Origin: Streptomyces spiramyceticus
Lineage (GTDB): Bacteria > Actinomycetota > Actinomycetes > Streptomycetales > Streptomycetaceae
Reading direction: 5' to 3'
Length of the DNA stretch: 64,000 nucleotides
Assembly: GCF_028807635.1 (NCBI RefSeq)
Contig: NZ_JARBAX010000001.1
Span: 2,992,501 to 3,056,500, forward strand
Part shown: positions 3,873 to 55,679 of the stretch, piece after piece
Numbering within the stretch: the first letter of the stretch is position 1
Layout: each line of letters starts with the position of its first letter
Notes under the pieces: generated by a model
Databases searched by the model: none
What the model saw: the letters and a program-made list of their open reading frames with translations, nothing else
Told to the model about the DNA's origin: nothing
Made by a program: the position numbers and the translations under genes

Positions 3873-5213
3873 TCAGTTCGTCTTGGGGGGTTCCGCACCC
3901 GCCGCCAGTTCGAATTCGGCGCGCGGATGTTCCAGCGAGCCGAGTGAAACGATCTCGCGTTTGAAGAGTCCCGCGAGTGTCCATTCGGCGAGGACCCGGG
4001 CCTTCCGGTTGAAGGTCGGCACCCGGCTGAGGTGGTACGTACGGTGCATCAGCCAGGCCGGATAGCCCTTGAGCTTACGGCCGTAGACATGCGCGACGCC
4101 TCTGTGGAGGCCGAGCGAAGCGACCGAACCGGCGTATTTGTGCTCGTAGTTCTTGAGCGGCTCGCCGCGCAGTGAGGCCAGGAGGTTGTCGGCGAGGACC
4201 TTGGCCTGGCGTACGGCGTGCTGGGCGTTGGGCGCGCACTCCTTGCCCGGCTCGTCCGCGGTGAGGTCGGGGACGGCGGCGGCGTCTCCGGCCGCCCAGG
4301 CGTGTTCCGTTCCTTCGATCGTGAGCTTGGCGGTGGCCGAGAGGCGGCCTCGGCCGTTCAGGGGGAGGTCGCTCGCGGCGAGGACGGGGTGCGGCTTGAC
4401 GCCCGCGGTCCACACGACGGTGCGGGTGCGGAAGCGGGAGCCGTCGCTGAGGACGGCGATACGGTCGGCGCAGGAGTCGAGGCGGGTTTCCAGGCGTACG
4501 TCGATATTGCGGCTGCGCAGTTCACGGATCGCGTACTTGCCCATCTCCTCGCCGACCTCGGGGAGGATGCGGCCGGAGGCCTCGACGAGGATCCACTTCA
4601 TGTCCTCGGCCTTGATGTTGTGGTAGTAGCGCGAGGCGTAACGGGCCATGTCCTCCAGCTCGCCGAGCGCTTCGACTCCCGCGTATCCGCCACCGACGAA
4701 GACAAAGGTGAGCGCGGCGTCACGGACGGCCGGGTCGCGGGTGGCGGAGGCGATGTCCATCTGCTCGATGACGTGGTTGCGCAGGCCGATGGCCTCTTCG
4801 ACGGTCTTGAAACCGATGGCGTAGTCGGCCAGACCAGGGATGGGGAGAGTGCGGGAGATCGAGCCGGGCGCGAGGACCAGTTCGTCGTACGTGATCTCGA
4901 TGGCGCCGGTGCCCTCTTCCTCGGTGGCGAGGGTGGTCACGGTCGCGGTGCGCTTGGCGTGGTCGATGGACTTGGCCTCGCCGATGACGATCTTGCACTT
5001 GTTCAGTACGCGGCGGAGCGGGACCACGACATGGCGCGGCGAGATGGAACCGGCCGCGGCTTCGGGCAGGAACGGCTGGTAGGTCATATAGGGGTCCGGC
5101 GACACCACGATGACCTCGGCCTCGCCGCTCCTCAGCTTCCGCTGGAGGTGCAGCGCGGTGTACATCCCGACGTAGCCGCCGCCGACAACGAGAATGCGCG
5201 CAGGTTCATTCAC
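3873..5213 (-). CDS. ndh: Type II NADH dehydrogenase (NAD(P)/FAD-dependent oxidoreductase)
   Basis: A single-subunit NADH:quinone oxidoreductase of the NDH-2 type, which passes electrons from NADH to menaquinone at the membrane without pumping protons. The FAD-binding Rossmann motif is at the N-terminus (ILVVGGGYVG). A second dinucleotide motif binds NADH (FVFVGGGYAGVE, about residue 175), and the C-terminal FAD motif is AWAAGDAA. The GTG at 5213 places the Rossmann strand about five residues in, as in relatives. An upstream in-frame GTG at 5249 would add 12 residues but has no better ribosome site. It diverges from the atrA-type gene; in S. coelicolor, as I recall, the same pair is SCO4119/SCO4118. 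Confidence 0.88.
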   Translation of the reverse strand: MNEPARILVVGGGYVGMYTALHLQRKLRSGEAEVIVVSPDPYMTYQPFLPEAAAGSISPRHVVVPLRRVLNKCKIVIGEAKSIDHAKRTATVTTLATEEEGTGAIEITYDELVLAPGSISRTLPIPGLADYAIGFKTVEEAIGLRNHVIEQMDIASATRDPAVRDAALTFVFVGGGYAGVEALGELEDMARYASRYYHNIKAEDMKWILVEASGRILPEVGEEMGKYAIRELRSRNIDVRLETRLDSCADRIAVLSDGSRFRTRTVVWTAGVKPHPVLAASDLPLNGRGRLSATAKLTIEGTEHAWAAGDAAAVPDLTADEPGKECAPNAQHAVRQAKVLADNLLASLRGEPLKNYEHKYAGSVASLGLHRGVAHVYGRKLKGYPAWLMHRTYHLSRVPTFNRKARVLAEWTLAGLFKREIVSLGSLEHPRAEFELAAGAEPPKTN

Positions 5214-36096: not shown

Positions 36097-36171
36097 GGTC
36101 CTGTGGAGCAGTTTGGAGTGCTCGCCACCCTGTCAAGGTGGAGGCCGCGGGTTCAAATCCCGTCAGGACCG
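36097..36171 (+). tRNA. tRNA-Asp (GTC), intact copy 1
   Basis: It starts GGTCCTGTGGAGCAGTTTGG and ends CGTCAGGACCG. The anticodon loop CTGTCAA gives GTC, and the T-loop is TTCAAAT. Identical in sequence to the tRNA-Asp at 43117. Confidence 0.95.
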
Positions 36172-36193
36172 CTGCGCCTCGCAAGAGGCGCGT

Positions 36194-36270
36194 GGCTGGG
36201 TAGCTCAGTTGGTACGAGCGATCGCCTGAAAAGCGATAGGTCGCCGGTTCGACCCCGGCCCCAGCCACCA
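36194..36270 (+). tRNA. tRNA-Phe (GAA), intact, CCA encoded
   Basis: It starts GGCTGGGTAGCTCAGTTGGT. The anticodon stem ATCGC/GCGAT encloses CTGAAAA, giving GAA. It ends CCCAGCCACCA with an encoded CCA. A GCGCCTC-GCAA-GAGGCGC hairpin separates it from the tRNA-Asp. Confidence 0.94.
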
Positions 36271-36275
36271 CACCG

Positions 36276-36304
36276 AAGACCCCGTCCCACCAGACGGGGT
36301 CTTT
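36276..36304 (+). terminator. Intrinsic terminator of tRNA cluster
   Basis: An 11-bp stem, AAGACCCCGTC with GACGGGGTCTT, has a 6-base loop and is followed by TTTCG. A second near-identical copy follows the damaged tRNA copies at 36543. Confidence 0.85.
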
Positions 36305-36339
36305 CGCGTTACCCGCACCCCCAACCCCCCACCAACCGG

Positions 36340-36414
36340 CTCGCCACCCGGTCAAGGTGGAGGCCGCGCCCGCGGCGCAGCCGCAATCGGGTACAGCAAA
36401 TCCCGTCAGGACCG
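36340..36414 (+). pseudogene. tRNA-Asp 3' part, duplicated and interrupted
   Basis: It matches the intact tRNA-Asp from the anticodon arm (CTCGCCACCC-GTCAAGGTGG) to the 3' end (AAATCCCGTCAGGACCG). One anticodon-loop base is changed (T to G before GTC). In the T-arm the six bases GGGTTC are replaced by a 30-bp palindromic element. The 5' half is missing. It cannot form a normal tRNA. Confidence 0.85.
36368..36397 (+). repeat. Short palindromic element, copy 1 (in tRNA-Asp remnant)
   Basis: A 30-bp copy: GCCCGCGGCGCAGCCGC, then AATCGGGTACAGC. The first half folds as a GCGGC-GCA-GCCGC hairpin. It replaces GGGTTC in the T-arm of the duplicated tRNA-Asp. Confidence 0.85.
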
Positions 36415-36436
36415 CTGCGCCTCGCAAGAGGCGCGT

Positions 36437-36537
36437 GGCTGGGTAGCTCAGTTGGTACGAGCGATCGCCTGGCTGTGTCCGACAGCGGCTGCGCCGCGGG
36501 CGACAGGTCGCCGGTTCGACCCCGGCCCCAGCCACCA
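36437..36537 (+). pseudogene. tRNA-Phe copy with palindromic element in the anticodon loop
   Basis: It matches the intact tRNA-Phe except that AAAAGC, covering most of the anticodon loop and the first base pair below it, is replaced by a 30-bp element in reverse orientation. There is also one T-to-C change next to the junction. Acceptor, D and T arms and the encoded CCA are intact. The anticodon GAA is lost, so a functional tRNA-Phe is not expected. Confidence 0.85.
36472..36501 (-). repeat. Short palindromic element, copy 2 (in tRNA-Phe copy)
   Basis: Read on the minus strand: GCCCGCGGCGCAGCCGC, then TGTCGGACACAGC. The first 17 bases are identical to copies 1 and 4. Two hairpins are possible (GCGGC/GCCGC and CTGTG/CACAG). 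Confidence 0.85.
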
Positions 36538-36542
36538 CACCG

Positions 36543-36571
36543 AAGACCCCGTCCCACCGGACGGGGTCTTT
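36543..36571 (+). terminator. Duplicated terminator after damaged tRNA copies
   Basis: A stem AAGACCCCGTCC with GGACGGGGTCTT followed by TTCG, nearly identical to the terminator at 36276. It shows that the duplication covered the tRNA-Asp 3' part, the tRNA-Phe and the terminator. Confidence 0.8.
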
Positions 36572-36575
36572 CGCG

Positions 36576-37424
36576 TTACCCCTCCCGCCCCTCCGCCGCC
36601 TCCCGGCGTGTCCGGCGCCAGGTGCGCAGGGACAGGGCCAGGGCTACCAGGGTCACTACGCCGGTCAGCAGTACCGCGTCCGGGACCGCCTCGCCGAGGC
36701 CGCTGACCCATTCCTCCACCGCGAACGAGTCGTCCGCGTCCAGCAGTCCGGGCAGGGCCGTCGTTCCGTCGAATGCGAGGAAGAGCGTGCCCAGCGCAAC
36801 GAAGAAGAGCCCGGACAGCAGCGAGGTGGTGTGCAGTTCGAAGCGGCCGAGCCGGAACGCCCGCCCTCGCAGCCACTGCCGGTTACCCAGTTCGAAGCGC
36901 TCCCACAGCAGTGCAAGCAGGAACAGTGGTACGGCCATGCCCAACGCGTAGACGGCCAGCAGCAGTCCGCCGTACACCGGGGTGCCGCTGACCGCAGCCA
37001 CCGTGAGGACGCTGCCGAGGATCGGGCCCGCACAGAAGCCCGCCAGGCCGTAGACCGCGCCCAGTGCGTACACCGAAACCGCCGTCGTGGGCCGGATACG
37101 GCCGGACAGGGCGGCGATACGGCGCGACGCGAAGCCCATGCCGAGGATCTGCGCGAGGCCCAGCGCGATGATCAGCCAGCCGCCGGCGAGGACCAGCTGG
37201 TCGCGGTGCCCGTAGAAGAGCCGCCCGGCGTACGAGCCGGCCGCGCCCAGCGGCACGAGGGTGGTCGCCAGTCCGGCGTAGAAGATCCCGGTCCTGGCCA
37301 TGAGGCGTGACGTCGAGTCGATCGAGTACGCGAAGAAGGCCGGGAGCAGGAGTGCGCTGCACGGGCTGAGCAGGGCGAGGAGGCCGCCGAGGAAGGCGGC
37401 GAGGTAGCCGATGTCGGAGCTCAC
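36576..37424 (-). CDS. CcdA/DsbD-like cytochrome c biogenesis membrane protein
   Basis: A 282-residue protein with six to seven membrane helices, which should carry electrons from cytoplasmic thioredoxin to the extracytoplasmic side. The typical CcdA features are the first-helix region GLLALLSPCSALLLPAF (redox Cys after Pro) and the mid-protein GLAGFCAGPILGSVL (second Cys). The C-terminal helix ends in an Arg-rich tail. Its GTG at 37424 overlaps the stop of the DsbA-type gene, so the pair is co-translated. It probably keeps that thiol protein reduced or supports cytochrome c maturation. Confidence 0.88.
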   Translation of the reverse strand: MSSDIGYLAAFLGGLLALLSPCSALLLPAFFAYSIDSTSRLMARTGIFYAGLATTLVPLGAAGSYAGRLFYGHRDQLVLAGGWLIIALGLAQILGMGFASRRIAALSGRIRPTTAVSVYALGAVYGLAGFCAGPILGSVLTVAAVSGTPVYGGLLLAVYALGMAVPLFLLALLWERFELGNRQWLRGRAFRLGRFELHTTSLLSGLFFVALGTLFLAFDGTTALPGLLDADDSFAVEEWVSGLGEAVPDAVLLTGVVTLVALALSLRTWRRTRREAAEGREG

Positions 37425-43116: not shown

Positions 43117-43191
43117 GGTCCTGTGGAGCAGTTTGGAGTGCTCGCCACCCTGTCAAGGTGGAGGCCGCGGGTTCAAATCCCGTCAGGACCG
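43117..43191 (+). tRNA. tRNA-Asp (GTC), intact copy 2
   Basis: Identical to the tRNA-Asp at 36097, with anticodon loop CTGTCAA. It starts GGTCCTGTGGAGCAGTTTGG. A candidate promoter (CTGCTGTACAGTCTG) lies about 50 bases upstream. Confidence 0.95.
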
Positions 43192-43200
43192 CATAGAATC

Positions 43201-43233
43201 GATGGCCCGCATCCCCACCGGATGCGGGCCATC
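43201..43233 (+). terminator. Hairpin after tRNA-Asp
   Basis: A 14-bp perfect stem, GATGGCCCGCATCC with GGATGCGGGCCATC, has a 5-base loop and is followed by GCCTTTG. Confidence 0.75.
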
Positions 43234-43258
43234 GCCTTTGCGTCCCGAAGCTGCCCCT

Positions 43259-43315
43259 GAGGCCACGCCCGCGGCCGGAGGCCGCAATCGGATGCAGCAA
43301 ATCCCGTCAGGACCG
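43259..43315 (+). pseudogene. tRNA-Asp 3' fragment carrying the palindromic element
   Basis: A fragment of the tRNA-Asp T-arm and 3' end lies 68 bases after the intact gene. GAGGCC begins it and AAATCCCGTCAGGACCG ends it. GGGTTC is replaced by a 32-bp element, the same site as in the 36-kb remnant. A terminator follows, as if the fragment had kept its original downstream flank. Confidence 0.8.
43267..43298 (+). repeat. Short palindromic element, copy 3 (in tRNA-Asp fragment)
   Basis: A 32-bp variant: GCCCGCGGCCGGAGGCCGC, then AATCGGATGCAGC. The hairpin loop differs (GCGGCC-GGA-GGCCGC), with compensating changes that keep the stem paired. Confidence 0.8.
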
Positions 43316-43332
43316 CAGTGAATGAAGTACGG

Positions 43333-54974: not shown

Positions 54975-54978
<4 letters not shown>

Positions 54979-55679
54979 GCGTTGACCAGCTTCTTCAGGA
55001 TCGAGGTGAAGAATCCGAGGCCGTCGGTACGTCCCGTGCCGACCAGCGGCTCCACGGCGTGCTCCGGGTGCGGCATCAGGCCGACGACATTGCCCGCGGC
55101 GTTGGTGATGCCGGCGATGTCGCGGAGCGAGCCGTTCGGGTTTCCGTATCCATCAGCGGCTGCGCCGCGGGCCAGATAGCGGAAGGCGACGCGGCCCTCC
55201 GCCTCCAGCTCGTCGAGTACGCGCTCGTCGGCGACGTAACGGCCGTCCATGTTCTTGAGCGGGATCCGGATCTCCTGCCCGGCGGTGTAGTCCGCCGTCC
55301 AGGCCGTCTCGCTCGTCTCGACGCGCAGCTTCTGCTCGCGGCAGATGAAGTGCAGATGGTTGTTCTGCAGCATCGCGCCGGGGAGCAGGTGGGCCTCGGT
55401 GAGGATCTGGAAGCCGTTGCAGATACCGAGGACGGGCAGGCCCGCCTTCGCCTGCGCGATGATGGTCTCCATCACCGGCGAGAAGCGGGAGATGGCGCCC
55501 GCCCGCAGGTAGTCGCCGTAGGAGAAGCCGCCCGCGAGGACGACCGCGTCGACCTGCTTGAGGTCCTTGTCGCGGTGCCACAGCGAGACCGGCTCGGCGC
55601 CCGCGATCCGGACGGCCCGCAGGCTGTCCTGGTCGTCGAGCGTTCCAGGAAAGGTGACGACTCCGATACGAGCGGTCAC
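54975..55679 (-). CDS. purQ: Phosphoribosylformylglycinamidine synthase subunit PurQ (with in-frame insertion)
   Basis: The glutaminase subunit that feeds ammonia to PurL. 234 residues, about eight more than I recall for S. coelicolor. The class I amidotransferase triad is visible: Cys in VLGICNGFQ, and His and Glu in MPHPEHAVE. Between FRYL and NPNGSLRDI, where relatives have about two residues, this protein has [10 protein letters not shown]. That segment is encoded by a copy of the short palindromic element. The frame is kept. The start GTG at 55679 overlaps the purS stop. The insertion is near the C-terminal PurL-facing side and was tolerated or is recent. Confidence 0.93.
55144..55172 (-). 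repeat. Short palindromic element, copy 4 (inside purQ)
   Basis: On the coding strand it reads GCCCGCGGCGCAGCCGC, then TGATGGATACGG. The first 17 bases are identical to copies 1 and 2. It encodes ARGAAADGY within PurQ. Confidence 0.8.

Follow-up and report, generated by a model that had tools for sequence, protein, structure and literature searches.

Within the window, a 64,000-nucleotide (64-kb) stretch of Streptomyces spiramyceticus DNA analysed as a whole, purQ (54975-55679, minus strand) encodes the 234-residue phosphoribosylformylglycinamidine synthase subunit PurQ (NF002957, 321 bits; TIGR01737, 274 bits; each above its cut-off). The gene bears an insert, a 24-nucleotide (nt) element GTATCCATCAGCGGCTGCGCCGCG (55146-55169, plus strand) whose opposite strand encodes RGAAADGY. 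Comparison with empty sites in relatives, several of which have GAC GGC at this position, shows that the insert comprises eight residues and that its DNA is one copy of the element, a net gain of 24 nt. An earlier note, made from the letters of the window alone, had claimed an in-frame palindromic insertion in purQ that replaced 6 bases with 30, and had added that the first 17 bases were identical in three of four copies. The insertion is confirmed, the replacement is right as a net +24 nt, and the 17-mer GCCCGCGGCGCAGCCGC does occur exactly three times in the window (36368, plus strand; 36501, minus; 55172, minus). For the reasons set out below, the purQ insert is very probably one copy of a non-autonomous mobile palindromic element of Streptomyces.

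The other copies in the window lie in three damaged tRNA genes, as the same note had it. The stretch at 36335-36585 duplicates 36125-36320 (the tRNA-Asp end, tRNA-Phe and a terminator) and is near-identical to it apart from the elements. Intact tRNA-Asp and tRNA-Phe genes stand in the other copy of the duplicated stretch (36097-36270, plus strand, the counterpart of about 36344-36540); in the duplicate, both tRNAs hold the element, in opposite orientations and each with a net +24 nt: GTGTCCGACAGCGGCTGCGCCGCG in the anticodon arm of the broken tRNA-Phe (36475-36498, plus strand, by alignment to the intact tRNA-Phe at 36194-36270) and GTACCCGATTGCGGCTGCGCCGCG in the T arm of the truncated tRNA-Asp (36371-36394, minus strand). 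A third relic, a tRNA-Asp 3'-end fragment downstream of an intact tRNA-Asp (43117-43192, plus strand), holds a 26-nt variant whose stem is extended to GCGGCCGGAGGCCGC (43270-43295, minus strand). All six loci with the 26-nt variant in other genomes (L237-L241, L258) likewise combine an intact tRNA-Asp with one or two nearby element-bearing 3' fragments. In these six Streptomyces loci, as in the window at 43117-43316, the tRNA-Asp fragments lie within a few hundred bases after the intact gene, and the position of the element in the T arm does not vary. The arrangement as a whole seems conserved; it may serve some function or mark the scar of an old integration. The 101-nt tRNA-Thr called by ARAGORN at 36437-36537 falls on the element-broken tRNA-Phe copy and looks false.

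Alignment of the window copies with the empty sites gives a core of 24 nt, approximately GTGTCNRWCAGCGGCTNCGCCGCG, mostly preceded by CT and followed by GG. The palindrome of 29-30 base pairs (bp) that had been proposed as the unit was rejected at the level of DNA, where pairing is limited to GCGGC-NNN-GCCGC, a 13-nt core with a 5-bp stem and a 3-nt loop; folded as RNA, the 55-nt strand of the purQ copy does pair over about 43 nt, with purQ's own flanks as partner, which partly bears out the longer palindrome at this single site. A pattern search of the whole S. spiramyceticus genome found about seven copies of the 24-nt form, one of them the 26-nt variant, in purQ, ilvB, a glycoside hydrolase family 1 (GH1) beta-glucosidase, an M20 hydrolase and the three tRNA relics, together with about six looser intergenic copies. 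This is about the threshold of ten copies per genome that the earlier note had set, and the genus has many. Three intergenic loci of this genome (L007, L008, L013) contain GTTTGAGGCCCGCGGCGGAGCCGC...ATGTCACAGCGGGAAGGG repeats, another host repeat, which hold a shorter relative of the element.

Counts of the 17-mer are a poor guide. With up to three mismatches it has 15 matches in the window against 6.7 expected (standard deviation 2.7), but at one mismatch the S. spiramyceticus genome gives 16 matches against 12 in a reversed control. The 17-mer alone is therefore too weak, a verdict from it by itself was rejected, and the case is carried by a longer comparison and the empty sites. An exact 23-nt pattern, the VSDSG variant, found 24 stretches in a collection of species genomes, 23 of them in Streptomyces and one, chance-like, in a Rhizorhabdus bin. 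A looser version (up to three mismatches) matched 204 of 295 genomes of the genus, some by chance, with 1-9 matches per genome and 35 in genome G103; the reversed pattern gave none in most genomes, three at most, and none in G103. Chance likeness among GC-rich palindromes in a GC-rich genome would account for the barely elevated 17-mer count and for several loose matches, with loose or broken stems, that look like native protein sequence (L026, L179, L183, L184, L190, L203, L274). These fall in five families: a CO dehydrogenase flavoprotein (L179/L183), TPR proteins (L184/L203), a histidine kinase (L190), DPP IV/S9 (L026) and an acyl-CoA dehydrogenase (L274). In L179/L183, L184/L203 and L274 the matched stretch roughly equals the profile in length, with no sign of eight extra residues. 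As a general explanation, however, chance is highly improbable: it is contradicted by the 35 matches against a control of zero in G103 and refuted by the empty sites, which differ by 24 nt in several genes. At one locus (L242; G252 C1:1086988-1087374), three element copies recur at a 181-base spacing in an apparent tandem repeat that contains the element.

purQ is present in all 61 Streptomyces genomes compared, S. spiramyceticus included, and 13 of them have the longer version. The insert is thus neither limited to one strain nor, as the earlier note had asked, common to most Streptomyces PurQ proteins with unrelated DNA, the young-looking inserts being element DNA. The site was read in one gene from each of 50 genomes: the insert is present in 12, FRYx is followed by two residues in 37 (DG, DV, DF and similar), and one (G045), not resolved at the site, is longer by its match; the remaining 11 genomes were called empty from match length alone. 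The two purQ genes of genome G048, one filled and one empty, lie on separate contigs (C120 and C99); the assembly may be mixed or the second copy genuine. Five inserts, that of S. spiramyceticus among them, are near-identical DNA on the plus strand (for example GTATCCATCAGCGGCTTCGCCGCG), one (L031) is intermediate and six others are degenerate. GC content at third codon positions (GC3) is 0.4-0.7 in the six young inserts (the five and L031), compared with 0.91-0.96 elsewhere in the gene, and 0.86-1.0 in five degenerate inserts, which we read as foreign DNA adapting in place.

The same form of insertion occurs in other genes. The S. spiramyceticus copies in ilvB, the M20 hydrolase and the GH1 beta-glucosidase are all in frame. 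Relative to its nearest relatives, ilvB has gained 24 nt (GCC GAC GGC has become GCC ACT-element-GGC; 30 of 61 genomes read), and exactly eight residues of the beta-glucosidase are absent at that spot from the solved enzyme 1gnx. Among 30 nuoL rows the corresponding loop has 29 residues in two filled rows, 21 in 18, an unrelated 35-41 in eight and 17 in one, with one row not resolved; three pattern-scan loci also have the filled, 29-residue form. In an SdhA-like flavoprotein, all nine filled rows have 17 codons in the loop, and the 21 empty rows have 9 (11 rows), 10 (four), 12 (two), 14 (two), 22 or 23. A tree of this flavoprotein was built, as for purQ, from the 30 best-scoring loci (of 52 genomes; of 61 for purQ) with the insert excluded. 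Its nine filled tips are scattered, requiring eight changes, no fewer than shuffled labels (8.0), and the inserts stand in at least three registers (K-TVSDSGSAAG, KD-TASSSGSAAG and K-ASDSGSAAG). Three registers and scattered filled alleles suggest separate insertions at a site that was probably hit repeatedly, and inserts of the same register may have spread by recombination.

Across the genus, 30 host open reading frames (ORFs) have a protein-family match in the frame in which the element is read, so that to regard purQ as an exceptional host is too narrow. Twenty-five read the sense frame (VSDSGSAA): ilvB, the SdhA-like flavoprotein, dapF, purH, a nitrilase-type amidase, an ABC ATPase, a TfrB-like Fe-S protein, nuoL, GH1, thiolase, the M20 hydrolase, PNPase, an E1 dehydrogenase, topA, GNAT, GH67, a glyoxalase/dioxygenase, a PASTA kinase, a P450, pheS, a histidine kinase, mutM, GH3, an amidohydrolase and an enoyl-CoA hydratase/3HCDH. 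Five read the antisense frame (similar to RGxAADGY): purQ, a PNKP-ligase, a CDP-glycerol transferase, DUF255 and an FAD-NAD(P)-binding protein. Three of the 30 matches (the amidase, the ABC ATPase and the TfrB-like protein) are below NCBIfam cut-offs, and the element is within the matched or aligned stretch in 19 of the 30. The second site of L112, L187 (narH, with the element probably before the start), and L093 and L242 (coding unclear) were left out of this count. The element is nevertheless open in six of six frames in its GAC variant and in five of six in the ATC variant found in purQ; were all six frames equally likely and tolerated, confinement to two would have a probability of 5e-15 for 30 of 30, or 9e-10 for the 19 alone. 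Frame calls from GC content by codon position, made at 149 distinct sites, gave 57 sense phase 0, 9 antisense phase 0, 17 antisense phase 2 and 5 sense phase 2, with no frame called at the remaining sites. Several antisense phase-2 calls are mislabelled genes that read sense phase 0, as judged by family match or orthologue (L010/L085, L096, L101, L106, L115, L186, L204, L247, L248, L267) or, for L077, by resemblance to L091. Of the five sense phase-2 calls, three fall in a host repeat described below. Because this method mislabels, we took frame counts from the 30 family-matched ORFs.

A rival explanation is convergent protein evolution, with a loop rich in Ser, Gly, Ala and Asp favoured in the protein and no mobile DNA involved. 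The peptide is indeed a plausible flexible loop, and it sits where solved relatives vary or have no residues: length at the insert position is variable among the solved relatives of PurQ and IlvB, those of PheS, PurH, TopA, MutM and GH1 have no residues there, and against a solved relative of DapF the gap was spread by the aligner. (An AlphaFold2 model of PurQ from a shallow alignment of 20 rows had a mean pLDDT of 46.7 and was not used.) Yet intergenic repeats, tRNA copies and the opposite strand of other genes all contain the same 24-mer, down to its synonymous positions. These untranslated copies refute convergence in practice, and we consider it very unlikely. Selection for a soft peptide would be the natural reading of the frame bias.

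Outside genes, the element is often found in the loop of an abundant repeat, GGGGCGCGGGG-AACT-GCGCGACCAGCC, which resembles repetitive extragenic palindromic (REP) sequences. Of 30 copies shown from G103, the left arm of caGGGGCGCGGGG-CT-(24 nt)-GG-GCGCGACCAGCCCC is matched exactly in at least 20. A gapped search for both arms gave 364 matches in G103, 354 in G275, 88 in G097, 36 in G212 and none in the S. spiramyceticus genome, with controls of zero except for one match in G275. Gap lengths were counted by eye in the rows listed for G275 (100 of 354), G212 (36 of 36) and G097 (14 of 88), G103 rows not being among them. Among these 150 repeats, 89 have a gap of 4 nt and 59 a gap of 28-31 nt that holds the element or a related sequence; one has a 3-nt gap and one a different insert. 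By genome, 52 of the listed G275 rows have a 4-nt gap, and in the other 48 a gap of 28-31 nt holds the element or a related sequence, frequently TATCGATATGCGGCTCCGCCGCG. G212 has 31 gaps of 4 nt, one of 3 nt, three with a relative of the element and one with another insert; in G097 the gap is 4 nt in six rows and holds the element or a relative in eight. The net gain is +24 nt at gene and tRNA sites whose empty form was seen and +24 to +27 nt in the intergenic repeat. Most filled host repeats among the G275 rows have a gap of 29-31 nt (net +25 to +27), compared with +24 in coding copies; the gap-length classes may be subfamilies, just one of them fully frame-neutral.

Such high-copy short palindromes bring to mind the REP/REPIN type of family, whose mover would be a REP-associated tyrosine transposase (RAYT; Y1, IS200-like). 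The Y1_Tnp domain (PF01797) was found in eight of 12 Streptomyces genomes searched, and REPs within genes are known in other organisms (PMC3733652). The domain was, however, not found in the S. spiramyceticus genome, G103, G276 or G013; of these, G103 is the one with 364 host repeats and 35 pattern matches. A resident RAYT is thus not needed for persistence, although loss of the enzyme after the spread is possible. Inspection of both strands of the element consensus and the host repeat also revealed neither a GTAG nor a CGTC tag, and we regard a RAYT-moved family as improbable. Inspection of filled and empty pairs found no target-site duplication but the replacement of a few bases of the target; the combination of terminal inverted repeats and such a duplication, expected of a miniature inverted-repeat transposable element, is thus not seen.

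Several observations weigh against reading the purQ insert as a mobile copy and the genus-wide pattern as repeated insertion. The fold of the element DNA is not above shuffles (z -0.5 to -0.7), copies in the S. spiramyceticus genome are few, with no exact-arm REP host, and no movement was seen between near-identical strains. The search pattern is the VSDSG variant, which biases the proportion of copies that encode Asp. In 11 of the 30 host ORFs (ABC, PNPase, E1, GNAT, P450, GH3, amidohydrolase, hydratase/3HCDH, CDP-glycerol, DUF255 and FAD-NAD(P)) the element lies outside the matched stretch, though in the same open frame. The sites from which hosts were chosen for the family search were themselves readable in the two frames, and the five native-looking families were searched later; with these counted in regardless, 30 of 35 are in the two frames. 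Finally, on the purQ tree 11 of 30 tips are filled, with five changes forced by starred branches, and the filled rows are clustered (only 1 of 500 shuffles as low). This clustering speaks for inheritance, and exchange across species could also spread one allele.

purQ may have received a single old insertion that was then inherited and lost several times, or passed from species to species by homologous recombination, with no repeat insertion there. Streptomycetes recombine, the filled alleles share one site and one orientation, fresh-looking and degenerate versions both exist, and G048 holds both forms. Against this, the five inserts that share rare codons lie in genes for which most pairs show a 24-34% difference at third positions, although no pair was significant in the expected direction, and in two pairs involving L031 the difference is greater within the insert than outside it (p 0.004 and 0.009). 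The three registers and eight changes over 30 tips of the SdhA-like gene also argue for repeated hits. On balance we consider a single insertion in purQ unlikely, and recurrent insertion is the reading we infer, over recurrent loss or exchange. It is quite possible, if short of probable, that the element has inserted repeatedly at loop or turn sites (REP loops, tRNA arms and Asp-Gly codons) as a near-harmless, portable donor of an eight-residue loop, the SdhA-like gene and perhaps purQ being hot spots hit independently in many species.

How would an insertion of this kind proceed? The loop of the REP-like repeat is a frequent home, from which copies may reach other loops, in tRNA arms and in loop-coding stretches of genes; the direction of copying was probably from REP to gene. 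The CT before and the GG after the element replace a few target bases, for a net +24 nt, and the replaced bases and constant flanks look like loop-to-loop copying. As 24 is divisible by three and five or six frames are free of stops, landing in a gene adds eight residues. Selection may then keep the two soft, small-residue readings, and old copies would lose the palindrome and take on host codons while retaining the loop. For the movement itself, our tentative guess is copying at hairpin loops, by gene conversion or template switching, with no resident transposase dedicated to it.

Palindromes inside genes are already known. Rickettsia palindromic elements (RPEs), described as about 150 bp in ten families (PMC10969869), offer the likeness that fits best, as the earlier note had suggested: both are palindromic elements in frame in unrelated protein genes, here 30 host ORFs, and a mobile palindrome in a purine-pathway gene is RPE-like in effect. 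The Streptomyces element nonetheless differs from RPEs, as described in that source, in size (24 nt) and host genus, and it is often nested in the loop of a different repeat. GTAG/CGTC REPs, according to a 2013 paper (PMC3733652), are short, lie in ORFs of several species, including repair and tRNA synthetase genes, and are otherwise mostly intergenic; the text of that paper, supplements aside, contains no mention of 'streptomyces' or 'actinobacter'. A palindrome of 20-40 bp at high copy is a feature that the Streptomyces host repeat shares, in the numbers found in the five genomes above, but the element lacks either tag and adds eight residues. REPIN/RAYT systems are short non-autonomous palindromes at high copy. 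They differ from the Streptomyces copies, which are nested in loops, with no Y1 transposase found in the S. spiramyceticus genome or G103 (for these systems see PMC3116915 and PMC2817692). REPs are also reported as targets of insertion sequences (PMC1525189), and the Streptomyces element is likewise a mobile unit landing in a REP-like palindrome; at 24-28 nt, however, it is too short to encode an enzyme. Within the open-licence literature searched, we found no report of the element, its peptide or an in-frame palindrome in Streptomyces, in keeping with the earlier note's impression that none was described for this genus. It is thus the tiny size, loop nesting, missing tags and host genus that we did not find reported.

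These insertions matter because clean empty sites show short repeats supplying new residues to core enzymes (PurQ, PurH, IlvB, NuoL, DapF, PheS, TopA and MutM) in a genus of great practical use, and the eight added amino acids are apparently tolerated by the host proteins. Codon use ranks the insertions by age, fresh ones having the palindrome's codons and old ones host codons with the loop kept. Together they form a natural series of one fixed peptide in many folds, useful for learning which loops of a protein can accommodate added residues. In strains that have no Y1 transposase, the movement of REP-like DNA becomes a testable question. Elsewhere in the window, the tRNA-Ser called by ARAGORN at 3876-3972 looks doubtful from a reading of its sequence.
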